64,000 nt of DNA from Enchytraeus crypticus. Its lineage: Eukaryota > Annelida > Clitellata > Enchytraeida > Enchytraeidae. Where the stretch lies: contig CAJHZI010000429.1 of NCBI GenBank assembly GCA_905160935.1, positions 394,501 to 458,500 on the forward strand. The letters are read 5' to 3'. The position numbers and the translations under genes are program-made. Below the pieces are notes generated by a model. The model ran no database searches, was not told the origin of the DNA, and saw nothing but the letters and a program-made list of their open reading frames with translations. Numbering within the stretch: the stretch's first letter is position 1; every line of letters starts with the position of its first letter. This document shows positions 28,389-64,000 of this stretch, in pieces.

Positions 28389-28639
28389 GCCACTAATAAT
28401 TTAATTTTTCTATATTTTCTTATACATGTATATATCGATTGATATTATCCTTTAAAAATGGCGTCAAATGATGTTGATAAAATTGAATTATGCTTCAGTC
28501 GAAACCAGAGTTTAACTATTAGCTCTACCAATAAATTAGATATTAATAAAATTGATGACTGTATTGTTAATCTATGTGACTCTATATATGTTACCCTGGA
28601 TGAATGCAAGTCTTTTTGCAATCTAAAGACCTATGTAAT

Positions 28640-36235: not shown

Positions 36236-36287
36236 ATGCAGCATTTGGATATTATCTTATTCATATTGTTGTCTTCATACATACAAG
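36236..36287 (+). CDS. LEV-9-like exon 1: signal peptide
   Basis: ATG opens a short hydrophobic leader, MQHLDIILFILLSSYIQ, ending in phase 1 at G|gtaagc. Joined to exon 2 it gives Ala at residue 18, a good signal-peptidase site before EQGRP. Confidence 0.75.
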
Positions 36288-39200
36288 GTAAGCAGTCTAG
36301 CCGATTTCTTGTGCGTTTATAATTTTAGGCAATGACGTAAATTTTTGAAAATTTGATTAACTGAATAAAGTGTAGGCTAAATACTATACTTGAGTATCAA
36401 TGACAACAAGAGAATGATATGAAAATAGAATAACAGATGTATATTGGATGTAAATTGGTTGCTTTTTGATAATTTTGAAAGCTCATTTTAAGAATATTTT
36501 CAATCGTAAAGTGCACGTGTAACAGTTAAGAGGCGGCTAAGCTGAAGCTGAGTAAACCAATGACAAACCTCCTCTGAAACATTTGTAAAGGCGCTCATAG
36601 GATAAATTAATTGTTGTTAAAAGTAAAATCGTTGGTATATGACAAATTAGTTGATCTATGGACAGCTCCTTAGTTAGTGAAATAGCAGGCTAGGCTGTTG
36701 TAGGAGGAAATATTTGCTTGGGACATTGAATTTTTCAAGTCCCAGACATTATATGATAGGCCCTATTTGACTATAGTTATCCGGCGCTTTAGTTAAATAA
36801 TTAAGAGATGAAGGGATTTAATAATAATAATAATAATAAGTACATTTATATACGCGCTGCTTTATGAAACATTCCATAGTAACGCTGTAAGTGCAATCAG
36901 TTGTATGCTCGGTCGAATAGAAAAATGTTAAATTTCTTCTGGAAGCTATAATGGGATAGATCAGACTGAAGCAGACTGACGGGAAGATTATTCCAAACAG
37001 TTGGTCCAGATATGTAGCGCATGCCCTTGCACTGGCCGTCACTGATGGGCTTCATTGGATGGACGTTGCGGATTTAATAGTACCGAAAAAAGAGACACAC
37101 TGTTAGTATTCTGTGTCCCAAGATTATTTAAAATTAAATACGGCAGCTTGAATAAAAATCGAAGTTATATGTAAGAAATATTGGAAAGGCTTACAATATA
37201 TATAAATACAATTCTAGCTCAGTCTCTGAAGTTATAAAAATATCAAAATTTGATAATTAACAGAAATTCTTAGAGCATGTATAATAACGAAGGAAAATAT
37301 TGTTTAACTATTCATTATTTTAGTGCCCGTTTATCATCTTCAACCGATGAATGCTGCAAGTGTAGTATACAATAGTAAATGAATTATTTATTTGAAAAAA
37401 TATAATTTGACGGCGGGATTTTGCTAACTTGGTTTAGTTGCGTGTCAATAATTGAAGTTAATCTACATCGGCCTCGGGCAGTACTTTGTAGGTGACCCCA
37501 TTGTAAGACATAGTGTTGACAGATTTGAAGGAAAAAATCCCAGGATGATGGAAGGTTATTCCTAAATCCGCACCGGCTGCAATTTATGCGCCATCAAAAG
37601 GCAACGGTTACTAATAACCATGGAGAGGAAGGAGGAAATGAACCTTACTCTAGCATCTGTGCTTCTTGACCCAGTGTGCCGTTATGTTTTTATGTTTTAA
37701 TTATTTTCCTAATTCATATAATTCCTTATATATTTCTTAGTAGAGTAATTCTGAAATCCGTCGATCACGATGTATTGTAAAATCTCGGCATTCGTTTTGG
37801 ATTAGTACGTAGATGATAAATGAAGTCATTCTCCTCTCCTGTCCATAGAGTCTTATGCTGGAGGCGGTAAATATTTCCACTCATGATGGACACATGATGG
37901 GATTAGAGGAATCCCGTTAACATCTTCCACAGCATGCCATTCAGTGCTAGGACGTCATACCGTTTTGATAGTATAAAACTGACTGCAGTTACGTTTCTGC
38001 ATGAGACGACCCTATAATCCTCCTCAGTCACCCAACCCGACGTTAAATTGTAATTGAGTCAAGTGAACTCTAGGTCGTGCCTCTACAGTATGCATACAGT
38101 ATTTTTTCTTCTCCGCCTTAATTTACTATGTTATGTTACGACGTGAAACTAAGATAATTTTTTATTATTGTCTCAAGAGCAACATCAACCATTAGTTACA
38201 GCAGTTCCATTGTCATCCGTTACTACATCGAGCAATATCTATCCGAATCAAGTCGACGAGCGAAATTTTTAAAGCAGCAATAACAAATTTAATAATTCTA
38301 ACAAATAACAAACTATATCATTCCTGAGCATCCCTGGCCCAAAATATAATCCTAATCTTCCCCTAATTCGTAACCCTAACCCTAACCCAAACCCTTGCAT
38401 GTACATATACAAGAAATATTTCAACGAAAGAAGCATTCTAAAATTTAAAATGACAGTTGCCATGATAGCAGTGCGTTATTTAAATGTTGTTTTCGAAATT
38501 GCTAACAATTATTCAATTATTGCTTTATTTTCTAAATGTCTTCAGGGAAAGAATACTCTCGTAATTTGTCTTACGCGAATGCAGGACCGATAGATATCTA
38601 ACAATAGCGCATGTTGACGCTATTTGGATAGTATTAATTTAGCTATATTTTTGATTTACTATTAAATGTTCTTTTATATTTTGAATTTTTTTAAAGTTAG
38701 CGGTTCCACGCGAAACAATCAAACAGGTCCTGAATACACTGTTTTGTGTCACAGTTTATTAAACTTTATTTTACATGAAATATCTTATATCGGCTCCTCT
38801 TTGGATCTAGCTCTTTTCTATCTCTCTCTCTCTCTCTCTCTTAGTGAACTGCCTGCTAGCAGGTCCATGGTATATAAATTTAGCCCTTTTATGACATCAA
38901 AATTTTCCATCAGGAGTTAATACTTTCCGGATATAATCTTCCACGTATTATCTGGACTCTGGACGCAGAGCCTGGAGAACGTGTCATCTCTCTGACTGTG
39001 GAACCACAGAGCGGATTACTGGAGGATTCTGGAACAATAATCGATTTCCAATCAATTATCTGTAGCCGAACGATCAAACTACACTCTATGGAGCATAGCT
39101 CATTTCTTGCTATGAGAGAATTCTATACAGTTTACTATGAGCTGGTTAAAGTTTGTAGACACTGTACCATAACCAGCTGATTAGAGTCTGATTGAATCAG

Positions 39201-42200
39201 AGATCTCTGTCAGAATCAAGATCTCATTGATATTAGTTTTTAACTCAACGTTTTTAACTCTTCATTATCATGCTCTTAGTTGCTTTAGAGTTCTTAAATT
39301 TAATTAAAATTTAAGACAATTTATGTTTTTCAATCATCAATAAATGAAGAAACATAAGGAATGAATGAAAATATATTAGGAAGGAACATAAGATAGGATC
39401 AAAGTCCTGAAAGTCAGTAACACAGTTTCTACCGTTTCACAGTTTTACAGTTTCTACAGTTTCTATATTGCTTATTTGATTTCATAATATCTGTTCTGAA
39501 AGTTCCTTTCTTGTGCAAATAGCGTGCAGTAGTTAGCTAATTCTGAGGCTTTATTTAATTCAATTATCACTTTTAGTGAATGAATTTGTTTTGGTTTGAT
39601 TTATATCTTAATTTTGATTCTGTTTAATTTAGAATTAAAATATTTTTTCACTATAAGTATGTTTCTGAATTACTTCGATATGAATTTTGGCAAAAATTGG
39701 TGAAATAGATATTTTTAAAACTATAAATGTAAAAAACACGCATTATAGTGAAATGATCAACTATGTCGATATCTATCACTTTTAATACCACATGTTTAAA
39801 CCTTGAGGAAATTTAGTCCATTTTCCATATAACCAGTCCAGTGAATGTCCGAGATTTTACTCTCAGATCAGCGCGGCTGGGATTCGAACCCGCGAGAATC
39901 TACTTCACCTCAGGATCTGTCAATTAAAACTTCATGACGTTACCCCTGCGCCATTGAGACATTCTATTAACTTTTTTTCTTTTTTTCGTTTTTAAATTTT
40001 ATTGTTATTTTATTGTATTAACTATCTATTGTTAAAATGCAAGGCTTATCTCTCTCTCTGCTCACTATCCAAAATTTATGTAAAAGAAAGCTTACTCCTA
40101 TTATGAAATTATCGTTGGCCTCTTTTAGTAAGATTTAGATCTGTCCGGTAAAAGATTCACTCCACGGAATCCTCTTGATTGAGTGAAAATTTAAAAGATT
40201 GCCGAGAGTTATGATGAACAGTTTGCGGATGATTTGCGGTTCGTGACCCTAGTTTTTGTCTTTAGCTTCTCGATGATATTTCGATAAATCTACTAACGAC
40301 ATTCTCACGACGTTACTTAATCGATCAGCTTTGATCACGTCTTTCATATCGCATAAAGTCTGCCGGGTTTCCAGTTCTAGAGAGTTATCCAGAAGCCTTG
40401 AGCCTCAGACGTAACGTCGTATCTAGTAAAGATATCAGTGAATGATTTCCAAGCAGCAGATACTGATCATCTGCACGTCTGTGATTATGCACTTCATCTT
40501 TTCAAAATAATTCCAACAAATTATTTCCCTACACGCTAATGACGTTTTAAAAAGGGTTACTAGTGCCCATGCTTCCGAAGACAAGTCAACGGATCGATAT
40601 TCTGAGAGTTAAAGCTCATTTTTACCAGATTTTCACAGAGGAGTCACATGAATACTTCATGGATTGGTTTATGCTTTCATCAGCATTAAGAGTATTAATA
40701 GTCCTACATCATCAACATTATCATATTCCCAGTCTAGCTAGGGCAAGGATATGAAAGACCCTCCCCACTCCTCTCTAATCCTCACTCAGTCAATCCCCAA
40801 TTTTTCATATCTATTTTAATAATCACATCCTATTAATAGGATTTAAATTAATTAATATGGCAGTCTATTCGTATCCCGACCCTGGTTAAGCTGGGATTCA
40901 GGGGAGGATGATGATAATGATGAAATAAATTAATATGACTGCTATCGACACATTAAGTTAAGCAGACTATAAACAAAGCCAGGTCGGGCGACAGCAGTGG
41001 TGAGAGAGTGGGGAGGGGTGTGTGTTCATATTGACGGCAGGCAATGCTTAATATGTACGCATATATTTATTAAGTATTTCTTCATTTATTAACAAAATGA
41101 CATTAATAAATTCGAAAGCAAATTATATTTGAATTAATTATCAAATGATTATAAAATAATGTCGTATTTTAATTTACATTTAATATGTCTAGACAAAATA
41201 TCTAGAGAAGATACCTTACATTTACGAGATATCTTATATTATATATGCCTGCCGTAAAACAGTAAACGGTGGAGTGTACAGTGACGCCCTCCAGCGAATA
41301 AGAAAATATACAAGCTGATTTTTTTTCACAGTAAACAAGTTTTATGAAAGGTCTATATTACGCTGTGTTATTCAGCCGAGCAGGGCAGGCCCTATGTGGA
41401 CCACCCGACATGTCCGAGAAAACCAGATCTGGTAGACAACAGGAAGTGCTTGAGGAAGTGCCGCACTGATAATGAGTGCAGAGGTCGTGGAAGAAAGTGC
41501 TTGTGCGACGATGTTTGTGGAAAAAGCTGTGTCAGACCAGGTACCATTGATCAATCAATCAGTCAATTAATTAATCGATAAAATAATAATAAAATAAATC
41601 AATCGATTAATCAGAATACAAAATCAATCATTCAATCAAGCAATCAGTCAAGAAAGCTGTCGATCAATTAAAAGCGATCAGTAAATCAATCAATCCACCA
41701 AGAAAGATGTCAAACAGTAACCAAACAAACAACGATACACTATTACTAGCTAAATTAATCTCTTTAAGTTTTTAAGAGCTATCAGTTTAAACTTAAATTC
41801 ATCTTTCTATTGCAGATATTTATTTATAGTTAACTATTTGTTCATTTATCACACACATTTCATACGAGTTATTCATTTTCAACAATAGAAGAGAAAAGCG
41901 TACGAACGAAAATACAGGCCTTGTAAATGTACTTGTATATTCCGAAACAAAATAAATCGTAGGAACCAATTTGTGCAGACAACATAGAGCATGGCGAGTG
42001 TAACATATGGCAGATTAATTTAGTAAACGCATACTTACACCAGCAGGTCCCATTAAATAATTGAGAGTTTTGTGAAAATTAAAAAATTACAATTCTATTC
42101 AATTTTTATAAGGGCCGTGTTTTGTACTTTACGTTTGAAAGTCTATTTTGCTACTGCTCCTGTCTGACTGTTAGGTCAGAAGTGTGAGAGATTGAGGACG

Positions 42201-45200
42201 CTATTGAATGGAAAGTTTGAGATCTCACCTTACAATACATTCGGCGCCAAAGTGCGCTACAGCTGTAACGACGGCTACGCTCTCTCTGGACTTCAGGAGA
42301 GAATCTGTCAAGGCGATGGATACTGGAATGGACTTCCACCTACCTGTCAGCAGGATGCTACCGCTGTGTCCGCCAAACAAATGGAAGGTAACCATCTGGT
42401 GTATACTTTCAAGTTCTCTACTAAATAAGGAAAGTGCGGAAAATGTGTACGTATCGGATCTACTATTTCGCTTTGTAGTAGAGATTATGGAGCTTATGAA
42501 TTAGGAGCGAAGTCATTACGAGTAACAGAGGATTGTTTCAAGCAGTGCCTTCTTTCAGTACATTGTTCAAATGAAATCTTTTACTGAGAAAAAAGCTTTT
42601 GAGCCCTATAATTCTTTAGATACTCTAGATAAGTCTCTATATAATTATAAGTCTATATAATTTTATAGATGCTACTGTATATATATTTCCATAGATTCTA
42701 TAGTTAAGTCCTATAATTTCCTAAAGCTACCATTGAAATTAGCCTGCATTAGCTTAACCAAATGATATCATGTGTCATAATCTGAATATATTAATGACGT
42801 AGAAGAAATCCACCTATCAATGATTTGTTAAAATGTTAATCTGCGAGAGAAATAAACTTAAAATAGCCAGTCCTCTCTCCTGGAATAAAAATAGAAATGA
42901 TCACGTGATCTTATTCCATCGTCCATTAGTCTAGTCCATTAGTTTAGTCTACCGAAATACTAGACATCTTCCTTACTAAAATTCCAATATTAATTCTAAT
43001 ATTCTGTTATTTCCTTATATCGTCACATTTTATGCTTATAAATGTTTTCTCGGTGATTTGTGCTCACTGGCTTGGATGTGTCTCAATAGTCCTCGATTTT
43101 ATCATTGAAGACGATAATGCTCTAATTCTTTTTTGTTATGTTAATATGTAACTTCGTACTGACTTCGTACTGAAATATACAAAATGTGCATATCTGTGCT
43201 ACACATGTTGACACAAATTGCTGCATATTGATATACCAGGGTTACTAAACTACTACTTAGTTCCTGTCTTATTCTCTCACTCTCTCGCTCTCTTAGTGAA
43301 CTGCCCACTTGCAGGTCCATAGTATATAACGCCTCCACTCTTCTCTCTGTCCTGTCTTCCGCTTTCTCTTCATGTCCACATACGACTGGACCTTTAAATC
43401 ATCTAAAATGACATTCCATTATTCTTGGGGATTCTGCTTTGACAAGGTGGGCCCCTATGCCTTCCTCAGCTTAGAATAACATTTACTGGGCAGCGGCTTA
43501 ATTCCCCGGGAATTAATTTAGTTAATAATTCCCTAATTTCCTGTCTACCCTTGTCGTATGCTATAACATCCGATTATTCGTATATCGCGCAGGTAAATGC
43601 AGCAACCCTCCCGTGGTGGATCACGCCAGTCACGACGGGCCCACAGGGCAGCAGTTCTACCCTCTAGGCACCCAGCTCACCTACACCTGCTCCCCAGGCT
43701 ACAGCCTCGACGGCTTCTTCAGAGCCATGTGCGTGGGCGAGGGTCGTTGGGTGGGACCGAGAATGACCTGCTCACGTATGTAGCTCTCTCTCTAGTGCTC
43801 TGAAAGGTGACAACAACGTTACTATCAATCACATAGACTCTGAATAAGGTCCAGTTTATAACACTATTGAAATTACTACTCAGTTCAATAATTGCTTCTC
43901 TGCAATAGGTAACACCCTTGCTTCTAAGCTTTTCCCACCGGTTAATGGTTATAAGTCATTTCTTCTTCCTTCAATAACAAAATCAATTTTTTAAAATCCT
44001 GCAACTGAAAATGAAGTATTAAATATTGTTATGTCTCTGAAATCTACTGATTCTACTGGTAGTGACGGTGTAATAACAAAAATTCTTCAAATATCTATTA
44101 ATTTTATCATTAGTCCCTTAACTCGCATTATCAATCAATCTCTTCAACCTGGTGACTTTCCTTCTTCATTTAAAATTGCCAAAGTTATTCCAATCCAGAA
44201 AAAGGGCGACACCTGCAAAGTTGATAATTGCAGACCTATATATTTATTAAGCAACCTTAGTAAAGTTTTTGAGAAAATAAATGTATAAAAGTATGTATAG
44301 CTTTATGTGTGAATATGATCTATTTTCACCACATCAATATGGCTTTCGTAAAGGTCACTCAACCGCTGATGCAATCATTAACTCTATTAATATGATACGT
44401 TTGAAAAATGGTTCTAATAATTATTTTTTGCTCTAAGTAAGACGTTCGATACTGTTAATCATAATATATCATTAGATAAATTAAATACATATGGAATTCG
44501 TGGTAGAGCCCTTAAATGGTTCAAGTCTTACCCCACGGATAGATCTCAATATACTGTTATCAATGATTTTTCATCTACTATCCAGCCTATTACTACAGGG
44601 GTACCTCAAGGTTCTATCCTTGGTCCTCTTCTGTTTCTAATATATATCAAATATCGAACGCTCTACCAATAAATCCTTGCTGTCTCTTTTTGCTGACGAT
44701 TCGAATGATTTTATTTCTGGAAACAATTTGGTATCTGCTTATGCTAAAGCCAACTGTGTTTGTCAAGAACTAAGCCATTGGTTTAGTTGCAACTTATTGA
44801 GCATTAATTATGATAAGTCTGCTTATATTTTATTTTACCCTAATACTGATGACGTTGATTTAATTAAGTCTTCTAATTTGCGTATTGTTGTTAATGGTAT
44901 GGTTATTAGTAGAGTCAATCATATTAAATTTCTAGGAATATATATTGATGAAAGGCTTAACTTTAAACAACATATTCACTATATCTAAAATTAATAGTGT
45001 TAGAGGTATGCTGTGTCATAGAAGAGATCTATTACCAATCTTACGTCGAAAAAATATTTATTAAGCCATTGTTTATCCCTATATCCATTACGGGATTGAA
45101 GCTTACAGTTTTATTTGTAATTACATAATTGAACCCCTGATCTTAGCTTGCAACCGAGTACTTAGAACCTTGCAGAACGTTGATAGATGTTATAATGTTA

Positions 45201-48200
45201 AACAACTTTATCTCAACTACAACGCACTCCCTGTTAACCTCTTACGAAATTTACGAATCTCTAAAATTATCTTCAGATGCTTAAAATCTTCCAATTCTGT
45301 CCCCTCCTCAACGGCCAATCTATTCTGCTTAAATCAGGCTGGTCATAGTTATCCTACTCGCATTAAATCAACTAATTACCTTTATAAACAATCTAATCGT
45401 GCTTTTTTCTATTCCTTTGTAAACTCTTGCTGTACAATTTGGAATGATATCCCCAGTGAAATCAGAACCTGTTCCACTGAATCAGTTTTTAACAAAATGT
45501 ACAAACAGCATTTAATTGATACTTGAAAATGATTATCTACATGTATGTCTATGTTTGCAATTGTTCAATGTCGTCAAGTCAGTAGAACCTCTGATCGTTC
45601 AGGGGTTATCTACTAACATTAGTCCGGCCTGTATAGGCCTACTATTGTTTGAATCCGGTTTTAATTTTTGTGCACTTTTAGCTCTACTAATCTTTAGTTT
45701 CTGCTTTAGTTAGTCCATAATGTTTTGCTCTTTACAATTCAATGTTATTTTCATTATCTATATTTATTATCTCCAATTTTTCTGCTATCTTATATTGCTA
45801 TGTTACAATGTTTCTGTGTTTCCGGTAGTCAGCTAGATAGAGCTCAATTTTGCTCTTTCTGACTGCCGTTTTATTTGTATTCTGTCTCGTTGTATGCGCT
45901 TTGTGTACATTTTGATTCAGTTACAAATAAATGATCATGGTTCTCTCTCTCTCTCTCTCTCTCTCTGACTAAAGACATCTCCAATGTACAAATTCCTGCT
46001 CATGACCAGCTTTCTAACTCAGTATGGGAACTACAGCGATCAGCAAGTGTATCTCTTCATAATGGTTGCTCACTGACGGACTGATGGATGGGATAAATGA
46101 TTAAGTGAAAAAAGAACAGACGAACGAAAGATAGAAAGAAAAAGCAACGAAAGAAAAAAGAAAGAAAGAAAGAAAGAAATAATGAATGAATGAATGAATA
46201 AATTAATGAATAAATGAATGAATAAATGAATGAATGAACTAAATATGTTTACTTCAAGTAAATTATGATGATATATGGCAAAAATCAAAATGAATGCATA
46301 ATACACAACAACAGTAGAGAGTGAAACAAACAGAATACTTGATGCATGCAAACCCAATGCCATACATTCGGTCACTAGTGAGAGCATTGTCCTATCTAGC
46401 TGGCCACCGTAAGAGTATGGGGGAATAAATTTCATACATATAGGCCTAAACTACCAATTCGTGAACAAGTCAGATTTATGATTTAAGATTTGTGAAAAAC
46501 ATTATTGTGGTCGCGTAGTTTTTCTACATGAAAGTACTATACGCGTATGTATGTTTATTATAAGTATTTTGTATATGAAGACATGAATGAGTGTTGCTGG
46601 ATAGCGTAACGTTCCGCTCATATGTAGAAATTTTTACTACTTTAGATATTAATTTAAATGTAGATCTAATTATCATTTAGCTCATGATTACTATTGAACT
46701 CTTCTTGTAAAGTAGTCTAGAAGACCTAGTTCGGCCGTAACACTGCTATATAAGTTTTCGTTGCTAATAATAATATAATAATAATTATATTTAAAGAGTT
46801 CAAAAACTATACAAATCTACAGAAAATCTTACAGAATCAGGTATCCTATGCCAGATTTGTAAGCTAGACAAAATGATCGATATATAAAATTCATGATTAG
46901 AATGAGAGTATATTATATAGCCTACAGTAAATAGTTAGACTAAAATAATCTCGTAATCACGAATTGCAGTCCTGTATTCAAAAGTTCCTTAGTAATTTTA
47001 AATATAGGCCTAGTGGTATCAGAGCGGATGCATTTGAATATACATGTATCTGTATTAGTCTGACAAACGATAGCTAAATAACAAATTAACAGGAAGTACA
47101 TTATAATTTAGGTATAACTCTTTTACGTAGGAGAAACTATTAAGATATTGTAGATTTCTTAGCACCTTATTCGTAGCGACGTACACGTTACTAGATGTCG
47201 ATTGAAAAGTATTACCATAAGTTTCAATACCATAACTAATACGAGAGTAAAAAATTGCATGCAATAACATTACACGATAATTTATAATTAGACATTTATT
47301 GCCATTGAATAACATTGAATTCAAGGAATTTGCGTTTTTAACGAATTGATTAACATGTTCATGAAATGTTAATTTTTCATCAATCCAAATACCAAAGAAT
47401 TTGATGTTGGTAACTTTTTTAAACTCAGATTCGTTAAGCTTTATTTTAAGATTAGGCTATTGGTTTTAAATATTCAATTGTTTTTATTTTAGGGGAAAAA
47501 TAACATAAATTAAATGCCGATTTGGAAATATTGAAAGCGAAACGATAGCAATTAAACCAATTTATTAAATGATTGCAAGCAATGTAACTTGATTTGTACA
47601 ATTCTTCAATAATATTTTCAAACAGCAAAATACTTGTATAATCAGCGAGTAGTTTTCAGTTAGCATTATTGTACGTATATTGTAAATAACAGCGGTCCAA
47701 TAATTGAACCTTGCAACAGTAGGAAGAAGTAGCTTCGTTAATGGTGATAAATTGAAGTCTATCGTAGGGGTATCATTTAAACAATTCTCATGTATTTCCC
47801 GTATTTCCCATATTCCCACAGTAGTTTGAGTATCTACTTGTTTCAAATGCTTCAGTAATATTTAGAAATATTCTAATTCTCTTATCTTGTTACCTATTCC
47901 CCACATGAATCACATTAATGGTGCTATATAAGCCATCTATTGTGAAGCGACCCTTCCGAATATGTTTTCAAAAAGAATTTTTAATCTATTAAAAAATATT
48001 CACGATACGTTTATAGAACGTTGCAAAGGTTCTACTGGCTGTTCTAATCACTGATATAGGTCTATTGTTTTCAATGTAGTCTGGTTTACCTTTTCAAAAA
48101 TTGCTTTTAGTTTTTAACATTTAAACACCGTGGAGTATCCTCCAACTTCAAAGGATTTGTTACTAAATAATACTATGGCTCAGTGGTTCAGCAATAATTT

Positions 48201-49538
48201 CAGCAAATACTGTAACTATTCTAGTGCTGAATTTGCATGGGTCCTATGAATTAGTTGTACTAAGCAATTGAATAGTTTGATATACTTCAAATACATCGGT
48301 TGAAATAAGAGACATAATTTGTGGGTAATTATGTTTTAAATACTGCTCAAAATCTGCGCAATATACACTGAGATTAGCTATCAGTTAGTACCAATTGTGC
48401 ACAATATTTATTAAATTCCTCGGCTCTACATATGTACAGTATATAGCGTCGGATACAATGCATTTATTAGCAGTTACCTTTGAGACTGAGAGACATTTTT
48501 GGTGCTAGGCGTATAACTACACATATTATAAAGAGATTTAAAAATGTTTTTTATTTAATTAAACAAATGTCAAACATTTTATTGAAGTATATGCCTATTT
48601 GTTTGCGCTTACATATCCCTTGCCCAATTGCACATTTACAATTTTAAATTAGTCATAAATTTGTATATAGCTGTCGTTTCGCATTAAAATTTCAACCAAT
48701 GCTATTTTTTAAAATTAAAATCTCTTTTCAATTCACTGGTCATCCAGGACTTGTCTTCAATTATTTTCCTTGAATATCGAGTTAAGAGATGAGATTGATT
48801 AAATTCTTTCACAATATATTGTAAGAATAATTTACATTATTGGTTTATTTACGAAAGACCAATCTAAAGTAGCTAAATTAATTTTTGATTTTTGGATGTT
48901 GTATTTATTGAATATTCTTATATTAAGTCTGCTATCATAGTTTACCTGCTTGTGTGGACAAGTAGTAGCAATAACATTAGCAAAGTTATCATTGATATAT
49001 GTAACAACTGTTATGCATAGGGTATTACTTAGCATAGGCGTACAGTAACTGCTGATTGAAACAAAGTTCGAGAATACGCGATCAATAATTAATAGAACCC
49101 TGCATGATGAAGGCATTATCAGACTTCGAACCCTGACGTCATTCATTCAGTGGTTCGACACCACCGACAATGGAATAAAATTCAATGCACTTAGAATGTC
49201 AACATACCTTAGAATATCAACATACCTTAGAATGTCAACATACCTTAGAATGTCAACATACCGTCTAACAGTATCAGTACAATCATATTTGTCAAGATCA
49301 ATGTTAAAATCACCGCACAGTAGACCCCTTTTAATAGGTTTATATATTGAAAAAGAATTAGAGATTGGAGAAAATCTCAACAAATGAATGATTGTTCAAA
49401 TAACTAAATATAAATAAATATATAAATATACAAATGTATAACTATATAAACTAACAAATGAATGCATGAATTATATATATATATATATATATATATTTAT
49501 TTATTTATTTATATATACATTATATATATAAACAGTAT

Positions 49539-49609
<71 letters not shown>

Positions 49610-51431
49610 GAATGGAAAAATAGGGCCTTGGCTGATGATATGGTATGGGGCAGAGAGAATCGGAGAAGGTCTATTCGTATGGATAAACTTAAGAAAAGTC
49701 TATTCGTTCCACGAACCTAGAATCAAGAAAAGAATTCTTCCCTAAGAATCAAGGGAAGATGATGACGACGATGATGACAAATGTTTAAACTAACAAATGA
49801 GTAAATGAATTGTAGCTCGAAGATGCGGTCACCCTGGCGATACACCGAATGGACATAGAGAAGGGCATCTGTTCGTCTATCCACAGAGGGTTAAGTACAC
49901 GTGCACCGAGGGTTATGAACTGGTGGGGCGTCCCTACAGGGTCTGCCAGCCTGACGGTCAGTGGTCCGGTACGCTACCAATGTGCCGTCGTGAGTATTCA
50001 ATATTGTATGTAGTATGACAGTTCCTTTATTATTCCACACCAATTTTATGAGTTATTATTTAAAATAAGTAAATATTTATTTAGGCTTATCCTAGTATGA
50101 CAGTTCCTTTATTACTATTCACACCCATTTATGAGAAATTATTTAAAGTAAGTAGATATTTATTTAGGCATATCCGCTGTAAATTAAAAATTAAGCGAAG
50201 TATACGGAGGGGAACTGAACTTACATGAACACAATTCCTGCGATTTATTTTTACTAATATTAATATTATTATTAATATTAATTGCGATTTATTAGATGAA
50301 GAGCACCATGTCGGGCTTTCACATGACCGGTAAATGAATAATAAACTAAACTACATATCGTTCTAAGCATGTGTTTTGTAGATAAATGCCAAAAAGTGGA
50401 TAAATACTGACAGATATTGTCAGGGATAATAGGTTCACTAACAATGTGTTAAACATTTTAAGAAGCCAATAAGGCTAAAGTCAGGTTTAACGTCTCATAC
50501 TGTGCTATTCTATAACAAACCGTACCGCCTCATACAATACCATGCGATGTCAGTGACGGACGAGCCCTGGATTTGAACCCCGCACCTACTGATCCGCGGT
50601 CAAGTATCTTACCGACTTCGCCACTGGCTCCAGCCAATGACAATAACAATGTGTTAAACATTTTAAAAAGCTAAAAAAGCTAAAGCCAGGTTTAACGTCA
50701 GTTTCCTGCTCGACAACATGTCAGTAACGGGAAGAGCACTGGATCTGAACCCAGCACCTACTGATCCGCTGTCGAACTTCATGCAAACCAGCTATCTTGT
50801 TCTAATTTGATGTCAAATAATATATTTTATTTATTTATTATTTATTTATTGTTATTAAAGAGGTTCGGCAAGACAATGGAACATGGCACTAATAAGGAAC
50901 CAAAAGTTAAAACGCAATCCTGTACTGGCACTTAATATTAAACTTAATTATTATACTTAATATTATTTAAATACCCTACTAATGATCTAAGTACTAACTT
51001 TTATCAATTAAAATGTATCTAGCAAAACGAAAGACTCAGATATACTTTCAGATAATAGAAGAAAATATAGCTGCTTAAAAAATTACAAATATTAAGTACA
51101 ATGTAGTACATATATAAAAGCACTTTACTTAAAAATAGAAAGTAGCGTTTAAATATTACATAGTAGAATAGAACAATAGTATAGCAAGTGAACAGTGAAT
51201 AAATGTATAGGCCAATTTATGCACATGAAGCGTGTAGATGGTTTATACAGCCATTGCATATTCTGTATGGTGTTGTCCGTATTGTATCAAGCATTTAAAG
51301 TTACATCATTAATTTTTACTTCAAATATTTTAATACCTTCAGAGATAGAGAGAGAGAAACAGAGAGTGAGAAAGAGTGCGAGAGAGAGTGCGAGAGAGAG
51401 AAAACGAGAGAGAGAGAGCGGGAGAGAGAGC

Positions 51432-51463
<32 letters not shown>

Positions 51464-52214
51464 AAGAGCGAGAGTGAGAAAGAAAGAGGTTTATCATAAA
51501 TATACAAATATATTTAGTGGAGCAAAAAGAACTATGTTAATAATGCGCAGCGGTGAAGTGTCCTCGTATAGACGCTCCAGTCAACGGTCGGGTCCAGGGC
51601 ACAGATTTCACGTATGGTGCAGTGGTAACGTTCAGTTGTCTCAGAGGATTTCAACTTGAGGGTCCACTTGCCAGGAAGTGTCAGCAGGACGGTAGCTGGA
51701 GCGGAGGTGAATCCAGTTGTAAAAGTAAGTCTACCACTTCCAGTCTTATCATTCCTTAAAAACCTATACGTGTCGTGTTGTTTTCGTGTTGTGTCAGGGA
51801 CGCGGAACAACACGGACTATATGATATTCCGTGTTATACGGCTGGAGCTAGTGACGATGTTGGTAAGATATTCGAACGTGGATCAATAGGTGCGGGGTTC
51901 AAATCCTGGGCTCCACCGTCACTGACATCGCTCTTGAATGAGGAAACTGACGTTAACATTAGCTTTTTTAGCTGTGTATTATGATATTAACTATTGATAA
52001 TCTCTCTACAAATATTAAATATTGATAACTATTAATCTAAATACTTGATATTCTGCTAAGTCATTTGAAGGGTTTGAAGCTTTGATTGAACTAGATCAAA
52101 ATATTGAATTTTAAATATTAACTCTAGCATGTTCATCATTATTATCACCATCATCATCATCATCAACATCATCATCATCATCATCAACATCATCATCATC
52201 ATCATCATCATCAA

Positions 52215-52250
<36 letters not shown>

Positions 52251-55200
52251 TATTATCACCATCATCATCATCATCAACATCATCATCATTATTATCACCA
52301 TCATCATCATCATCAACATCATCATCATCATCATCACTTGAATCCCACTTTAGCTAGGGTGTGAGGATATATATGCATAATAACTAAAGAAATAAAGTAT
52401 TTAAAAGCCTTTTGAGTGGATTTTGGCGTCGTGAAGTTAGATGGATGCCATTATATTAGTTCTAATTTTACTGCACATTTTGCTAACTCAAATGAAATTA
52501 TCAAATTAACTTGTTCAATGATTAATATCTCTTTATTGCGAAACCATTTTTATTGCGAGATACATTCGATATTCGTCTAATTGCCTTTGTTTAATTCTTA
52601 AAATTCTAATTTTAATTTTTTTAATTCTAAAATTTAACTCTGGTTGCAACTTTGAAAGTCAAAAAAATTCTTTATTGTACCGTTTTACGGATTTATTAGA
52701 CACATTACAGCTGTGTAAAATGCAAAATAATTAGAAGGGAAAATATTTAAGAGTTCAAGTTTTAGAATTATTTTAAACTTTAAGAAGGCCAATAACGAAG
52801 ATTTGTTTGATTAAATAGTCAATTTTGTAATAGATTTCACAAGAATCCTCTAACCTTTAATCCTTTATCCTTTTAATCCTTTAACCTTTTATTGAATATT
52901 AGTTGTAGATTGTGGAAGACCAGGACCATTTTACAATGGCTATATTGCTGGATTGCAAACTACTTTCGGTTCAATTGTATCATTCAGGTACAGAGCTACA
53001 GTTCCACAATTTCATCATTGCTGATATGCACATTTCTGAAATTAAAATTACGATTATGCCTGTTAGTTTAAGTTATTAATAAACAATTACTAGTTAAACT
53101 ATTAGATTAGTTTCTGTTACAAGTTTAAATTTTAGCGTATATGTTACGCTGAAAATAAGCTATAGCTATATAAATTAATTTAATGTGCATAGTTGGGCTA
53201 TTATTGGAAACGAGTCATTTTGATACGGGATTCTGCTACCTTCTAGCAGAATTTAAGTTATTTAATTTATTTAGCGTTTAATTAATTCATGACTCAACTT
53301 AGCTCTCTAAGTACCATCAAGATTTAATATTTTAATCAATCGCTGTTTTAATGCATTACTGCAGTAATTAAAGTATGGAATGAAAATTAATATCAATAAG
53401 AAGAAAGTGATGAGGTTGTCTGGAAAAAGTAGGAGGAGTCAATAAAATAAGAAAGAGAATGTGCTAATTTAGAACAGATAAAGATATTTAGATAGGCCTA
53501 TTAGAGCACACGATAATATGGGATGGGAAAACGAGAAATGTCCATCAGAAATGTAGAATTGTATGAGCAATTCTAATTCTAAATCTTATTTGCGTAAGCA
53601 AATCATAAATTAAATGTGAAATTGTGTAAGCAATTCTACATTTAATAATAAATATTATTAAACAAAACGGTATTTTTACAGGTGCTTTGGACGCACAACT
53701 TTTGAAGGGGTATCCACAACCTCTACCTGTCAGGATAATGGAAAATGGTCACATCCCTTGCCAAGATGCTGGAGTAAATTCATTATATCAATAATCTAGC
53801 ATATTAGATGTAGTGATGTAAATTAACCAGTAAAATTAATGTATTTTATTCTTCAGTCGAAAATTACTGCAGAGCCTTTTTTTATTTGTGGGTTTAAGGT
53901 CAAGTTCAGAAGCCTATATAGCTACTCTTGAAGAAGTCGAACACGACCATCGCCGTGGTTGACCAATTGACCGACCAATCAAAGCAGCAGTCAGAGTATA
54001 GACCGAGTGATGATCAAGTTCTCCATGAGAAATAAATGCTAAACGTATTCAAATAGCTAAGGTACAATAGATAGAGAATTCAGAATGTGATCACCATGTG
54101 ATATAAAAGCTATTAATTACATATCAGCTGTTATCAGTCAAATATGTCGTTAAGTCAATGGTGAAAAGACGAATAAATGAAAGAAGGTATGGTTAGTGAG
54201 TGACGGAATAGTAATTAAAAAGTGTAGATAAATAAACATTCAGAAAATCAATTAAACAACTTAGGCGTATTTATGAATAAATTAATGTAAACATAAGTTA
54301 CATCAACTTGAATTTGTTTCTGGTTCAGTAGTTAATTAATTGTAATATCTCTCATTTCGATGAACATACTTCAGAAATTTCTTTCTAATAATTGACTTTT
54401 ATATTGGATGGTTTAGAATAAGTTTATGCCTATTTGATTATAAAACTGTTACGCCTCAAGTTTCATCTGGTCGAGGTTTTAGTATACATGTACAGCATTG
54501 GCAAATCTTTATTCAACAGAATGGATTATGGCTCGAAAATTGCAGCCCGATACTCTTATTATTAACGTACTATTTGGATTCATATTTCCTAGAGCCACCA
54601 CTATTTAATAAATAATAGCGCATCTTCAGTACTCTATTATTTTATACTTTTGTTGTCCTTCACTGTTATTCCATATTGCGTTAATGTGTTCTGCACTGCA
54701 TTTATTCTTCTTATAAGATTGCACTTTGTTGATGTGTACATGTATATTGTTAATCAGTATTTCTTTCTTTTATGCTGTATTATTCTAAATCGGACTATGT
54801 TAAAAATTATCGTTTGTTTAATCATCGCTGCTTTTCCGCTGCTATTTTGTGCACAGCTATTCCGTAGCTTGTAACTTTGCAGGTAAATGCGAGATCCCAA
54901 CGATTCACAACGGAACTCTGGGGGCTGGAGAGGAACCAGGAACATTCGTAAATCATGGCAACAGACTGAAGTACGAGTGCAACAGAGGTTTCGTGAACGA
55001 CTCCGAGCAGCTGCCAGTCTGCAACAACGGCACCTGGTCCACCCAACCTCAGTGTCTTCCTGGTAAACATGACTGTAGTCCTGGTAAACAGGGATATAGT
55101 CCTGGTAAACGGGACTATGATCCTGGCAAACAGGACTATATCCCTGTTTTCCCTTTGACTTTATTAAGTCTTGCTTAAAGGCTACTTACGTTTTTGGTTC

Positions 55201-57822
55201 TTATTTTTCAGTTACACGGACACAACACGTGTTTAACATTTGTTTAAGTCATTTATAGTATTAGCAAGTTTATTTGGTGGCTCTGAAAAGATATGTGCCG
55301 ATGTAGGTTACTTTTATGTCTAAATTTAAAATTGTTAAGATATGTTTAAAGTATTAAATTAAATTATATCAAAATCTGATTTAATTTAGCGATGCCATTC
55401 CTCTATTTTGAAACTTAATAAAATGTATTAAAGCATAAAAGATGTCTAAGTTAGTTCTGCCTGAATATTGAACTCTGGTGGTTAATCTAAAAGTATGTTT
55501 CTGATGAATATTGTCCTGTATCTAGAAGTAATTGATAGGTATAAGATTATAAACATTGGGCATAAAAATAGTTAACTTGTCTGCAAAAATTCATACTTTG
55601 AGACTGACCCACCTACAAAATTTTACCATCATCTTCTTCCCTTGACTCCTAGTTTAACTAGGGCCGGGATTAGACCATTTTGTAGTACTTTATGGAGCCT
55701 AGGCTCTCACCAACCGAATCTTACTGCGTCGTCGTCTTTTACGATACGTACAATCCACGTTTGGTCTATTCTTCAGCAACCCAGACTCAATACAGGTAAA
55801 CTATCTATAATATAATATATGCCTATGATAAAATTATGCTAAAAACGAAGCATATCGCCAATACTGCATAACTAAATTTTCACCTGTCAAAATGCAATTA
55901 ATTAATTAAGATTGATTAATTAATCTTGATGAATTAATTTTGATCATTTTTTTTTTTTTTCGTTATAGCACCCTGCAACACAAGGCCGTCAGAGCTAAAA
56001 GAAGGCATTGTGAGGTTTCACAACATGCTCCATGGAGATAAGGCTAAATACACGTGTAACACAGGCTATAATCTAGTTGGCGACACCTACCTCACCTGTC
56101 AATATGGAATCTGGATCGGTATTAAACCTGAGTGTGAAAGGGGTTTGTATTAGAATTTTTATGTTTTCTTGTTTGTTCCTTTTTAATGATTTTATTCGCA
56201 TGATTACACACATGATATGTTTGTTACCTTGTGTCATGCTAGTTTCTGTTTTTTGTCGTTTCGTATTGTTTTCTTCCTCTCCATGGTTATTCGTAATCGT
56301 TGCCTTTGGTAGATTAACCGCTGAACTGGCACTGGTTTGAATCTCTTCATTCTATTCACCACCATTCTCCTCATATGCAATACTGCTAGCTTTAGTGAAC
56401 TGATGTGTTTGAGTATATTAGGTAATTGAAGGAAGACTGGAGAGGAAGAAGTTTAGAGGAAGACCGAGCCTTGATGTGCTGGATGAGTTGATAACTTTTG
56501 TTGATATGAATAGAAAAGCAAATTGTCAAAATATGATTATACTGAAAACATTCATTATCAAAATTTATAGGTCACGGTCCTGCCAAATGCATTATACTAA
56601 GGGAAAGGTGATACGTTATCACTATCATAAAGATGAAAGGTGATACGTTATCACTATCATAAAGATGAAAGGTGATACGTTATCACTATCATAAAGATGA
56701 AAGGTGATACGTTATCACTATCATAAAGATGAAAGGTGATACGTTATCACTATCATAAAGATGAAAGGTGATACGTTATCACTATCATAAAGATGAAAGG
56801 TGATACGTTATCACTATCATAAAGATGAAAGGTGATACGTTATCACTATCATAAAGATGAAAGGTGATACGTTATCACTATCATAAAGATGAAAGTTGAT
56901 ACGTTATCACTATCATAAAGATGAAAGGTGATACGTTATCACTATCATAAAGATGAAAGGTGATACGTTATCACTATCAGTTTAGTTCTAGTTACTCTTT
57001 CACTGGACGTATTTGAGCAAAGATGACCAAGAATTATTTAATTTGCTATATCTAGCTTTACGGCTGGAAAGGGATCACATGAAACCTCAATCGAAAGCCA
57101 GTTAAAAAGCTTCATTAAGCGTTAATGATAGTCGTTAAAGATAAGCTTTAATGATTATGATAGATAATGATGATATTAATTACAATCCGCTGTCACTTTA
57201 GAAACACGGTCTGAAATTGTTATGCAGCTTAATAAGTTATCCATTTTGCCAGTCCAATATTATATTTCAGAGAATCTGCTCTGTGTCTGATACAATATTA
57301 TAATAATATGTCAGATGCAATGTCTAACCCTATACAATAAGCATCAAGGTCGTAATTTGGAATTACATAAAATTGATTAAATTAATTAAAGTTATATAAA
57401 TTAGTTGTAATTCTATGATATTGTAGCACATCTACCACTCTACGCACTAAGCTATTGAGCCATTCTACGTAACTCAGTTAAATCAATATCTTACACTTCT
57501 AAGTAGATTAAATATTCTGAATCGACTTTGCGTTGTAGTTTTCTGTAAATTCCCTGGAACATTGGAAAACGGTCAGATCTTCATAGTTGGTTTGATCGGC
57601 AAGTACGAGTACAGAAACTACATCACCAGCACTGAGCACAACAAACAAATAAAGTATTCCTGCGACAAGCAGTACAAGCTTGTGGGGCCAGGTGGAGCCA
57701 CTTGTGTCGATGGACAGTGGAGCCCTGCTGAAAAACCGCAGTGTGTACCCAAACAACATCCAAAGCCTCTGTATGTTTTCCGCGGGCGTCGAAACGTGCG
57801 AGAGGAACTACTGGTAGGTTGA
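36236..57822 (+). CDS. Secreted WAP + eight sushi/CCP domain protein, LEV-9-like
   Basis: Exons: 36236-36287, 41376-41540, 42175-42387, 43593-43775, 49816-49989, 51551-51724, 52903-52987, 53682-53773, 54883-55062, 55969-56142, 57539-57822. They total 1776 bases, or 591 residues and a TGA. Residues 1-18 are a signal peptide (MQHLDIILFILLSSYIQA). Residues 30-69 are a WAP core with eight cysteines. Eight CCP domains follow, each with four cysteines and the W between Cys3 and Cys4. The tail has an RGRR site at 579-582. WAP plus eight CCPs is the layout of C. elegans LEV-9, which works with LEV-10 to cluster acetylcholine receptors at synapses. Nearly all exons are phase 1-1 and carry one domain each. 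The product is presumably an extracellular scaffold, but a synaptic role here is inference from architecture alone. A further 3' exon is possible, because CTG|gtaggt could be a donor. Confidence 0.85.
36530..36700 (+). repeat. Family C repeat, degenerate
   Basis: It lies in intron 1 of the LEV-9-like gene. The landmark ttgatctatggacagctcc is preserved while the rest is diverged. Confidence 0.4.
36815..37085 (-). pseudogene. CR1/jockey-like LINE 3' end with (ATT)n tail, inverted
   Basis: The minus strand reads YISGPTVWNNLPVSLLQSDL, then SFQKKFNIFLFDRAYN, matching the GP-x-x-WN-x-LP terminal block of CR1/jockey-type ORF2. It ends in (ATT)n at 36820-36840. It lies in intron 1 of the LEV-9-like gene. 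Confidence 0.65.
37412..37705 (+). mobile_element. 5S rRNA-derived SINE, near full length
   Basis: Same order as the inverted copy at 6830-7132: a head with cggcgggatt, a 5S-like core with cgggcagtactttgtagg, then aaaaaatcccagg, ggaaggttattcctaaatcc, caaaaggcaacggttac and a terminal gttatgtttttatg. It lies in intron 1 of the LEV-9-like gene. Confidence 0.75.
37706..39750. other. LEV-9-like intron 1, middle part
   Basis: It contains three telomere-like taaccc units (38371-38395), a (CT)n run (38820-38841) and a motif D terminus (38842-38890). No exon or RNA is recognised. Confidence 0.4.
39765..39965 (-). mobile_element. tRNA-derived SINE, family B
   Basis: On the minus strand, an A-box-like tggcgcaggggtaac is followed by a textbook B-box, gggttcgaatccc. 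The body includes gatctgagagtaaaatctcg. Diverged copies lie at 58500-58620, 59690-59830 and 61135-61378. Confidence 0.8.
39966..41375. other. LEV-9-like intron 1, last part
   Basis: RTE-like 3' tips occur inverted at 40705-40760 and direct at 40850-40930 (IRIPTLVKLGF then gaggatgatgat). Nothing else is recognised. Confidence 0.4.
41376..41540 (+). CDS. LEV-9-like exon 2: WAP domain
   Basis: Acceptor ttattcag, donor CCAG|gtacca, both phase 1. The domain reads CPRKPDLVDNRKCLRKC, then ECRGRGRKCLC and VCGKSCV. Its eight cysteines have whey-acidic-protein spacing. WAP domains are often protease inhibitors, but in LEV-9-type proteins no inhibitory role is established. Confidence 0.85.
42175..42387 (+). 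CDS. LEV-9-like exon 3: CCP domain 1
   Basis: Acceptor gactgttag, donor GGAAG|gtaacc, phase 1-1. It reads CERLRTLLNGKF, YSCNDGYAL, RICQGDGYWNGLPPTC. After the fourth cysteine a 17-residue linker (QQDATAVSAKQMEG) leads into CCP2. The overlapping frame at 42208 is a shadow. Confidence 0.9.
42388..43592. other. LEV-9-like intron 3 with an inverted LINE tip
   Basis: At 43290-43430 the minus strand carries motif D after coding-like sequence (LDDLKVQSYVDMKRKAEDRT), the 3' tip of an RTE-like LINE. The rest is featureless. Confidence 0.5.
43593..43775 (+). CDS. LEV-9-like exon 4: CCP domain 2
   Basis: Acceptor cgcgcag, donor CTCAC|gtatgt, phase 1-1. It reads GKCSNPPVVDHASHDG, YTCSPGYSLDGF, MCVGEGRWVGPRMTC. 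The exon is strikingly GC-rich against its AT-rich introns, which helps confirm it. Confidence 0.9.
43860..45966 (+). pseudogene. CR1-like LINE, reverse-transcriptase half, 5'-truncated
   Basis: The reading gives [76 protein letters not shown] and a terminal IWNDIPSEIR. The ADD box is intact but frames shift several times. The 3' end is acaaataaatgatcatgg followed by (TC)n at 45945-45966. It sits in intron 4 of the LEV-9-like gene in the sense direction. Confidence 0.85.
46120..46235. repeat. (GAAA)n and (TGAA)n simple repeats
   Basis: gaaagaaagaaa passes into tgaatgaatgaa. The 121-codon minus frame over it is composition-driven. Confidence 0.85.
47000..49383 (-). pseudogene. CR1-like LINE remains, inverted
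   Basis: From 49383 downward the minus strand gives endonuclease parts (GLLCGDFNIDLDKYD, then LIIDRVFSNFVSISSYC). A long decayed RT zone follows, then the post-palm region (LLHAIFYSRISYGIETYGNT, KELYLNYNVLPVNLL) at 47324-47055. That last stretch closely resembles LYLNYNALPVNLL in the sense-oriented LINE at 45170, so both belong to one subfamily. Confidence 0.7.
49188..49262. repeat. 18-bp tandem repeat, four copies
   Basis: atgtcaacataccttaga repeats with one g/a variant. It expanded inside the endonuclease of the inverted LINE and inserts RYVDIL repeats in its frame. Confidence 0.85.
49465..49606. repeat. (TA)n microsatellites
   Basis: Two tata runs are separated by ttatttatttat and other short sequence. 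Confidence 0.97.
49605..49770 (+). pseudogene. RTE-like LINE 3' tip with (GAT)n tail
   Basis: It reads EWKNRALADDMVWGRENRRR then SIRM, with an internal insertion, and ends in gatgatgacgacgatgatga just before exon 5 of the LEV-9-like gene. Confidence 0.6.
49816..49989 (+). CDS. LEV-9-like exon 5: CCP domain 3
   Basis: Acceptor gaattgtag, donor CCGTC|gtgagt, phase 1-1. It reads RRCGHPGDTPNGH, KYTCTEGYELVG, VCQPDGQWSGTLPMC. At 58 codons it is easily missed as a bare open frame. It follows a 6-kb intron full of LINE remains. Confidence 0.9.
49990..51550. other. LEV-9-like intron 5 with two family A SINEs
   Basis: An inverted family A SINE lies at 50458-50637, and a second truncated one at 50655-50790, nearly in tandem. 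A (GA)n-rich block (51342-51490) follows. The 154-codon frame at 51195 runs through that block and into exon 6 in the wrong frame, so it is not a gene. Confidence 0.7.
51551..51724 (+). CDS. LEV-9-like exon 6: CCP domain 4
   Basis: Acceptor aatgcgcag, donor TAAAA|gtaagt, phase 1-1. It reads VKCPRIDAPVNGRV, FSCLRGFQLEGP, KCQQDGSWSGGESSC, a canonical sushi domain. Confidence 0.9.
51838..51972 (+). mobile_element. tRNA-derived SINE, family A, full length
   Basis: A plus-strand copy from ggctggagctagtgacgatg through B-box ggggttcaaatcctgggct to aactgacgttaacattagc and an agcttttttagc end. It gives the clearest head-to-tail view of the family. Confidence 0.85.
52137..52341. repeat. (ATC)n microsatellite, about 200 bp
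   Basis: atcatc runs are broken by periodic aac and attattatcacc variants. Directly after it come cacttgaatcccactttagc and tagggtgtgagga, the inverted RTE-like 3' tip. So the array is that element's tail, expanded. All open frames here are artefacts. Confidence 0.9.
52903..52987 (+). CDS. LEV-9-like exon 7: first half of CCP domain 5
   Basis: Phase 1 in, phase 2 out. It reads VDCGRPGPFYNGYIAGLQ to VSFR, with donor TTCAG|gtacag. Two acceptors, 6 bases apart (tattag before 52903, tgtag before 52909), keep the same frame. They would give IVDCG or NCG at the junction. Confidence 0.8.
53682..53773 (+). CDS. LEV-9-like exon 8: second half of CCP domain 5
   Basis: Acceptor tttttacag, donor TGGA|gtaaat, phase 2 in, phase 1 out. 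It reads CFGRTTFEGVSTTSTCQ and GKWSHPLPRCW. Together exons 7 and 8 make one complete CCP with four cysteines. The split falls at the second cysteine. Confidence 0.8.
53774..54882. other. LEV-9-like intron 8, nothing recognised
   Basis: AT-rich sequence with no element identified. A hydrophobic 74-codon plus frame at 54650 ends just before exon 9 in a different frame and has no family features. Confidence 0.4.
54883..55062 (+). CDS. LEV-9-like exon 9: CCP domain 6
   Basis: Acceptor actttgcag, donor CCTG|gtaaac, phase 1-1. It reads KCEIPTIHNGTLGAG, YECNRGFVNDS, VCNNGTWSTQPQC. The donor is the first unit of a 21-bp repeat, so longer in-frame versions of this exon are possible. Confidence 0.9.
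55059..55146 (+). repeat. 21-bp minisatellite built on the exon 9 splice donor
   Basis: Four units begin cctggtaaac (the last cctggcaaac) at 55059, 55080, 55101 and 55122. The unit length is a multiple of three. The sequence stays open in the exon 9 frame, encoding PGK-x-D/G-x-x repeats. Each unit carries its own potential donor in phase 1. Confidence 0.85.
55969..56142 (+). CDS. LEV-9-like exon 10: CCP domain 7
   Basis: A long T run and cgttatag form a strong acceptor. The donor GGG|gtttgt is weak but gives phase 1. It reads PCNTRPSELKEGIV, YTCNTGYNLVGD, TCQYGIWIGIKPEC. A 5S-SINE 3' fragment begins about 50 bases after the donor. Confidence 0.85.
56190..56345 (-). mobile_element. 5S rRNA-derived SINE, 3' part only
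   Basis: Minus-strand sequence holds ccaaaggcaacgattacg, aataaccatggagaggaag and the gtgtaatcatgcg end, shared with the copy at 6830-7132. The 5S-like head is absent. Confidence 0.6.
56410..56505 (+). pseudogene. RTE-like LINE coding scrap
   Basis: It reads VIEGRLERKKFRGRPSLDVL then DELITF, the same basic block found in minus orientation at 3352-3730. Confidence 0.5.
56604..56979. repeat. 32-bp minisatellite, 12 nearly identical copies
   Basis: The unit is aaaggtgatacgttatcact plus atcataaagatg. Only one substitution (gttgata) was seen across the array. Each unit contains a hairpin of GTGATA, loop CGT, TATCAC. The array lies in intron 10 of the LEV-9-like gene. Confidence 0.95.
57539..57822 (+). 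CDS. LEV-9-like exon 11: CCP domain 8 and C-terminal tail
   Basis: Acceptor gcgttgtag, phase 1. It reads FCKFPGTLENGQIFIVGL, QIKYSCDKQYKLVGPGG, TCVDGQWSPAEKPQC. This CCP is longer than the others between Cys1 and Cys2. A tail with YVFRGRRNVREE follows, then a stop. RGRR fits a furin site. An AATAAA lies about 73 bases after the stop, which supports a terminal exon. Confidence 0.85.
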
Positions 57823-57894: not shown

Positions 57895-57900
57895 AATAAA
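57895..57900 (+). terminator. Possible polyadenylation signal of the LEV-9-like gene
   Basis: AATAAA about 73 bases after the TGA. The motif is common by chance in AT-rich DNA. Confidence 0.35.
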
Positions 57901-63223: not shown

Positions 63224-63429
63224 GTTGGAAGAAGACCAACTTCGTTTTAAGATCTTATGCTTTCTTATTAGTCTTTTTGAATCATAAATATAGATATATT
63301 TTGTATTTGTGTAATTGTTTTTTCTTTCTACGGAGACATGTGGGAGCAGCTTAAAATAGATTATATCCGAGGTAGTGGCCTCTAAACTTATACATCTCCT
63401 TGGAGTTCTCAGTGTGAAAGATTTCAAAT

Positions 63430-64000
63430 TTCTTCCGCTTTCATCGGTCAGTCAGACACCATTTTTGTCGTATCTCATCGTGATGACCGATTTCCCAAAC
63501 TCTAGTAGTTCAAGATTACCAAAGTTATCCATATGATCTTTCTTAAATGCTTCTCGATCGTTGCTCTCGGTTGAGGAAAGTTTAGAGGAATAGTTCAGAG
63601 GAAATAAGAACATGCGTAATAAATAGACCTATATTCGAAGTATGAATTAATTATCCAGAATATATGCTGCACCTTACTTAAGATGAGTTTAATATACATG
63701 TAGTATATTAATATATTACTACATAATATTGGCTACACGCCTATCGCTTAATTTATTTTACTAAAGGATAGCAATATACGACCAAAGTCTAACAATTTAA
63801 GATTAATCGTTACCAATTAAGTTTAATTAACAAAGGATTCATAATTATATACTGTAATACTAAATAGTCCAATATGAAAAATTCATTCCTATTTAAATTT
63901 AAGCCTAATCATAATTATAATTCAAACGTAATGAAAACATTTAAAATATAATTTGAAGAGGCTTTAAGGCATATCGAGTTACATTTGCCAACTATTACGT
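63430..64000. other. Upstream flank of the RING gene
   Basis: The minus-strand frame has a stop at about 63450. No further coding exon or promoter motif could be supported before the window ends. Confidence 0.4.

Follow-up and report, generated by a model that had tools for sequence, protein, structure and literature searches.

Does an annelid genome encode an extracellular scaffold protein of the kind described from the cholinergic synapses of nematodes and flies? The question is raised by a gene on contig C336 of the 524-Mb assembly of Enchytraeus crypticus, located in a stretch of 64,000 nucleotides (hereafter, the window), whose predicted product joins one WAP domain to a row of CCP (sushi) domains. 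According to the available text of two sources, LEV-9 of C. elegans is a secreted, muscle-made protein with one WAP domain and eight CCPs that is needed for the clusters of levamisole-sensitive acetylcholine receptors and is activated by C-terminal cleavage (PMC9083331; PMC4220116); its WAP domain is dispensable for the clustering role (PMC9083331, same portion). The Hig-anchoring scaffold protein (Hasp) of Drosophila melanogaster, present at cholinergic synapses, comprises one WAP domain and up to seventeen CCPs (available part of PMC9083331), and is characterized as extracellular and processed in the accessible sections of reviews.

Gene model and exon structure

The gene (36236-57822, plus strand), predicted from the genomic sequence, was rebuilt from its splice sites as a chain of 11 exons with GT-AG borders in 10/10 introns; nine introns are in phase 1, and the remaining one, inside CCP5, is in phase 2. 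The sequence-only reading of the window had proposed 11 exons with phase agreement at all ten junctions, which was reproduced at the same span; its product of 591 residues, in contrast, became a spliced frame of 589 residues plus stop, a trivial difference of two residues. The features of the gene are as follows (window coordinates, strand, description):

36236..36287, +, exon 1: start codon and hydrophobic leader (MQHLDIILFILLSSYIQ; leader recognized by eye), phase-1 end; donor GTAAGC
41376..41540, +, exon 2: WAP domain with eight cysteines; PF00095, 28.2 bits
42175..42387, +, exon 3: CCP1; from splice sites, Pfam and CCP profile
43593..43775, +, exon 4: CCP2; from splice sites, Pfam and CCP profile
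43995..45526, +, intron between CCP2 and CCP3: reverse-transcriptase-like frames, recognized by eye; outside the gene product
49816..49989, +, exon 5: CCP3; from splice sites, Pfam and CCP profile
51551..51724, +, exon 6: CCP4; from splice sites, Pfam and CCP profile
52909..52987, +, exon 7: first half of CCP5, phase-2 end; the following intron is common to both paralogs
53682..53773, +, exon 8: second half of CCP5; joined CCP5 reaches 32 bits in Pfam
54883..55062, +, exon 9: CCP6; from splice sites, Pfam and CCP profile
55969..56142, +, exon 10: CCP7; weak donor GTTTGT
57539..57822, +, exon 11: CCP8 with long loop (IVGLIGKYEYRNYI), 25-residue tail including RGRR, stop
57895..57900, +, AATAAA: possible polyadenylation signal, 73 bases 3' of the stop

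A possible donor (CTG/GTAGGT) directly 5' of the stop codon might give rise to a longer isoform despite the downstream AATAAA. The reverse-transcriptase-like frames between CCP2 and CCP3 are probably a retrotransposon fragment; two tested pieces of them gave no Pfam match. The intron between CCP7 and CCP8 contains a 32-base tandem unit in 11.8 copies with 99% matches (56603-56979).

Two of the introns are long (5,088 and 6,040 bases), one of them with the retrotransposon-like fragments, and might suggest that the exon chain fuses two adjacent genes by artefact; against this stand the junctions, which are GT-AG with matching phases in ten of ten cases, and the recurrence of the identical domain order on two other contigs (C467 and C558, see below). 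A fusion was rejected on splice sites and phases and is regarded as highly improbable. A protein search of the species' own genome revealed no second close copy; the gene is intact and was found once in the assembly.

Domain content of the predicted protein

Pfam assigned Sushi (PF00084) to eight stretches of the protein (E 7.5e-75) and WAP (PF00095) with 22.8 bits in the whole protein and 28.2 bits in its N-terminal 85 residues, compared with a cut-off of 20.8 bits. Four cysteines and a tryptophan after the third cysteine are present in 8/8 CCPs, and the WAP domain contains eight cysteines; all 40 cysteines of the protein are accounted for by the WAP domain and the eight CCPs, the latter being 21-39% alike among each other. 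A loose CCP expression matched the plus strand of the region seven times, whereas 200 single-base shuffles averaged 0.005 matches, with at most 1 in any of them. A profile built from the eight CCPs was run over 94 kb of contig sequence, which covered the window, the preceding 10 kb and the following 20 kb. It recovered just the eight known domains, seven of them whole and one in two parts; there was no ninth CCP in this stretch, the next match having an E-value of 0.82, and thus the count of eight stands. On the same search, the possibility that the long introns or the adjoining flanks harbor a further CCP was rejected. In consequence, the previously noted eight-cysteine WAP domain with exactly eight sushi domains was borne out by Pfam, cysteine count and CCP profile, and the likeness to the LEV-9 layout (WAP, eight CCPs) holds against the description in the available part of PMC9083331.

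The long loop after the first cysteine of CCP8 (IVGLIGKYEYRNYI) is kept in both paralogs, with 30 columns identical in all three sequences; AlphaFold2 applied to the CCP8 exon and its two paralogs (three rows) gave a mean pLDDT of 40. The ends of LEV-9 and Hasp presumably resemble this looped CCP8, which is taken as a lead and not as evidence. When the CCP8 exon was used to scan contigs of prokaryote genomes and viral contigs, 55 and 12 pattern matches, respectively, were obtained, and 0 were confirmed.

Paralogs in the same genome

The 47 matches of the protein search of the own genome comprised ten on C336 (the gene itself), eight on C467, seven on C558, 20 on C102 and two weak ones on C302. 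The matches on C467 (minus strand, 223-297 kb) corresponded to the WAP domain and CCP1, 2, 3, 4, 6, 7 and 8, those on C558 (plus strand, 58-68 kb) to CCP1, 2, 3, 4, 6, 7 and 8, both sets being collinear with the query. CCP5 was found in both loci on reading of the exons and is split in two like that of the window gene: the two halves gave E-values of 3.6e-5 and 6.3e-9 in C467, while in C558 the second half gave 1.7e-9 and the first (E 0.093) was accepted on place and splice sites. A phase-2 intron lies directly before the second cysteine of CCP5 in 3/3 genes (splice sites read by eye). C467 consequently comprises a WAP domain and eight CCPs, and C558 eight CCPs; the WAP domain was found in two of the three paralogs (the window gene and C467). 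No WAP domain was present in the 11.5 kb upstream of CCP1 of C558, and a genome search with the C467 WAP domain at E-values up to 10 returned C467 itself, C336 (E 3.1e-8) and weakly C163 (E 3.68), with no match on C558; this gene either is without a WAP domain or has one that was missed by these searches. Its CCP2 (L070, about 2544-2900) differs from those of the window gene and C467 by a long stretch inserted between cysteines 1 and 2, which may hide an intron.

Of the C102 matches, 18/20 were located in or beside one huge sushi frame. On this contig, at about 872-880 kb (L001, L007, L066, L067), dozens of CCP matches are packed into one open frame of 2,730 residues, an unusually large sushi exon without interruption. 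A WAP family search listed 47 places, 33 of which form a dense cluster at about 24-302 kb of C216, a local expansion; 0 of the 47 were on C336, C467 or C558, and since the search missed even the WAP domain of the window gene, it says little on other WAP-CCP genes.

Collinearity and CCP tree

Every CCP of each gene was scored against every CCP of the other genes (A, window gene; B, C467; C, C558). The best match was at the same position in 8/8 rows and 8/8 columns for A-B and likewise for A-C, and in 6/8 rows and 8/8 columns for B-C; of the 40,320 permutations, no other scored as well as the true pairing in any of the three gene pairs. Identities at matching positions ranged from 40-61% (A-B) over 38-52% (A-C) to 32-55% (B-C). 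A tree was calculated from 64 domains, the 24 of the three genes and 40 others, all from the C102 and C765 loci, which were drawn from 46 domains with omission of three that belong to the window gene and three of at least 75 residues; one CCP is represented among the 40 by two overlapping pieces, and the CCP5 of C558 entered both scoring and tree with one residue wrong (R for L). In this tree of few columns, with 33/61 inner branches open and the bootstrap unsettled, supported clades of the three genes were obtained for CCP2, 5, 6, 7 and 8. CCP1, 3 and 4 formed no supported three-gene clade in the 64-CCP tree: CCP3 and CCP4 were well supported for A with B only, the three CCP4s joining at 99/40, and CCP1 was unresolved, that of C558 grouping weakly with an outside CCP. 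The three diverged paralogs stem from an ancestral gene that already possessed eight CCPs in the present order; the position-by-position match together with the shared CCP5 intron marks the eight-CCP unit as an old, conserved protein.

Candidate partners

LEV-10, a membrane-bound protein with five CUB domains and one LDLa domain, acts together with LEV-9 to cluster acetylcholine receptors. The genome contains at least 129 CUB matches (best 150 of 216 candidates scored) and at least 150 LDLa matches (best 150 of 819 candidates scored), and matches of both domains on one strand within 20 kb were seen on C383, C698, C421, C506 and C321 (coordinates compared by eye); a LEV-10 gene was not identified from the domain matches of these scored candidates. 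For the superfamily of ligand-gated channels, which includes the acetylcholine receptors, 150/150 scored candidates (of 405) matched at E <= 1e-5; such an abundance is to be expected of any animal and is hardly informative.

Other genes and elements of the window and the assembly

Upstream of the gene, an exon on the minus strand (17209-18414) encodes a SIX domain (PF16878, E 1.2e-27) and a homeobox (PF00046, E 1.5e-9) and belongs to a gene that we assume to be perhaps of Six4/5 type; a later exon of it may be represented by the large frame at 11623-12957 (minus strand), for which Pfam gave no match. A decayed non-LTR retrotransposon with pieces of endonuclease (PF03372) and reverse transcriptase (PF00078) occupies 27711-31669 (plus strand) and includes a 140-base tandem duplication of 99% identity (28807-29086). 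Downstream, a frame of 559 residues on the minus strand (61775-63451) ends in a C-terminal RING-H2 finger (PF13639, E 8.2e-12) and perhaps encodes an E3 ligase.

Contig C802 (L043, L044) is a mitochondrial contig of 15,205 bases with the order cox1-N-cox2-D-atp8-Y-G-cox3-Q-nad6-cob-W-atp6-R-H-nad5-F-E-P-T-nad4L-nad4-C-M-rrnS-V-rrnL-L-A-S-L-nad1-I-K-nad3-S-nad2, which we take to be the annelid ground pattern and which makes an annelid the probable host. Its protein genes were named by eye, with atp8 and the rRNAs placed by position alone; ARAGORN made 25 tRNA calls, of which 22 were kept and three extras dropped (T-agt, M-tat, L-cag), 21/22 sharing their strand with the protein frames and the S between nad3 and nad2 being called on the opposite one. 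A protein-gene order common to Clitellata, Siboglinidae, Nereididae and others is regarded as the putative ground pattern of Pleistoannelida in the available text of PMC4866719, which does not spell it out. In a siboglinid, the control region is located between trnR and trnH (PMC10815697), whereas in C802 trnR adjoins trnH and, on the assumption of a circular contig, the largest free stretch, about 630 bases, separates trnH from nad5. Short cox1-like pieces on five nuclear contigs (C361, C424, C796, C373, C166), 4/5 of which have an internal TAA or TAG and one of which is below the family cut-off, are probably mitochondrial insertions.

Putative relationship to LEV-9 and Hasp and possible function

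Under the reading slightly favored here, the gene, as one of three paralogs, would encode a secreted protein of the LEV-9/Hasp type, with one WAP domain and eight CCPs. The predicted protein is alike to LEV-9 in its one WAP domain and eight CCPs, and to Hasp in the succession of a WAP domain and CCPs, of which the fly protein has up to seventeen and the annelid protein eight in 94 kb. As the annelid gene and its two paralogs were compared with the nematode and fly proteins by described architecture, it is on architecture that the putative homology to LEV-9 and Hasp is based; among the 58 matches in solved structures, 0 were named LEV-9 or Hasp. If it holds, the protein would be secreted, consistent with the hydrophobic leader of exon 1 (recognized by eye) and the location of all cysteines within extracellular-type modules; the rod of eight CCPs with its odd last CCP would bind partners in the extracellular space, in the LEV-9 case a receptor complex at cholinergic synapses; and the short basic tail might be clipped off for activation, as reported for LEV-9 in the available text. 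The RGRR nine residues from the C-terminal end offers a weak fit to C-terminal processing of the LEV-9 type: it is weak as evidence because R-X-[KR]-R is reached in 7.5% of tail shuffles and is carried by 0/2 paralog tails, where looser basic sites (KRYR, RLNRR) occur.

The likeness is open to a different interpretation, as the protein could be an unrelated WAP-plus-sushi protein, e.g. an immune or complement-type regulator, that acquired the same layout by domain shuffling. CCPs are common in this genome (at least 117 Sushi matches, best 150 of 230 candidates scored), all nine introns outside CCP5 are in phase 1, the shuffling-prone intron phase, and the best sequence matches among solved structures were complement proteins, e.g. 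CR1 and factor H. Complement regulators (factor H, CR1, DAF) indeed display arrays of the same CCP module; the structure matches, however, span runs of CCPs and not the layout of the window protein, and they may merely mirror the content of the structure collection. We know of no complement regulator with a CCP rod that has a WAP domain. Considering also that one WAP domain with exactly eight CCPs is the LEV-9 layout, and that an order of eight CCPs collinear in three diverged paralogs is neither loose nor recent, such an independent origin appears quite unlikely; it should be kept in mind that the WAP domain, which is part of the likeness, is dispensable in LEV-9 (available part of PMC9083331) and was not found in C558, which counts against the kinship.

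A true homolog of LEV-9 and Hasp might as well act outside synapses, in egg coats, the gonad or the general extracellular matrix, with the paralogs split among tissues. The presence of three diverged paralogs in one genome is compatible with such a role, as is a gene of the abalone Haliotis discus hannai (HDH_G06399), annotated 'Protein lev-9' and, in the available text of PMC11989308, among the top genes up versus testis, a non-synaptic setting that argues against the synaptic reading; the comparison group is read here as ovary. The abalone name, however, is an annotation label from an expression study in a mollusc, and synapses are the site of action of LEV-9 and Hasp, the two relatives that have been studied by experiment; a function outside synapses is considered unlikely.

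Given Hasp in Drosophila and the abalone gene named 'lev-9', the occurrence of the scaffold outside nematodes, which the sequence-only reading had presented as the news of this locus, is not new. Among the publications naming 'lev-9', none was about annelids as judged by titles and the beginnings of abstracts; within the literature searched, the gene in E. crypticus, its two collinear paralogs and the split CCP5 and looped CCP8 as markers are new.

It is possible, and on balance doubtful, that a WAP plus eight-CCP scaffold, its eight CCPs conserved and recognizable one by one, was ancestral to protostomes, that nematodes kept it, that it grew longer in flies, and that it was triplicated in the annelid, where the paralogs would organize different ligand-gated receptors at synapses. 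To recognize homologs, the split CCP5 and the last CCP with its long loop would be better markers than the bare number of sushi domains. What is described of extracellular acetylcholine-receptor clustering comes from one nematode and, in part, from flies; with three genes of the family, whose CCPs are identifiable by position, an annelid would offer a way to ask whether this mode of synapse building is common to all protostomes, and whether each of the three paralogs serves different receptors.
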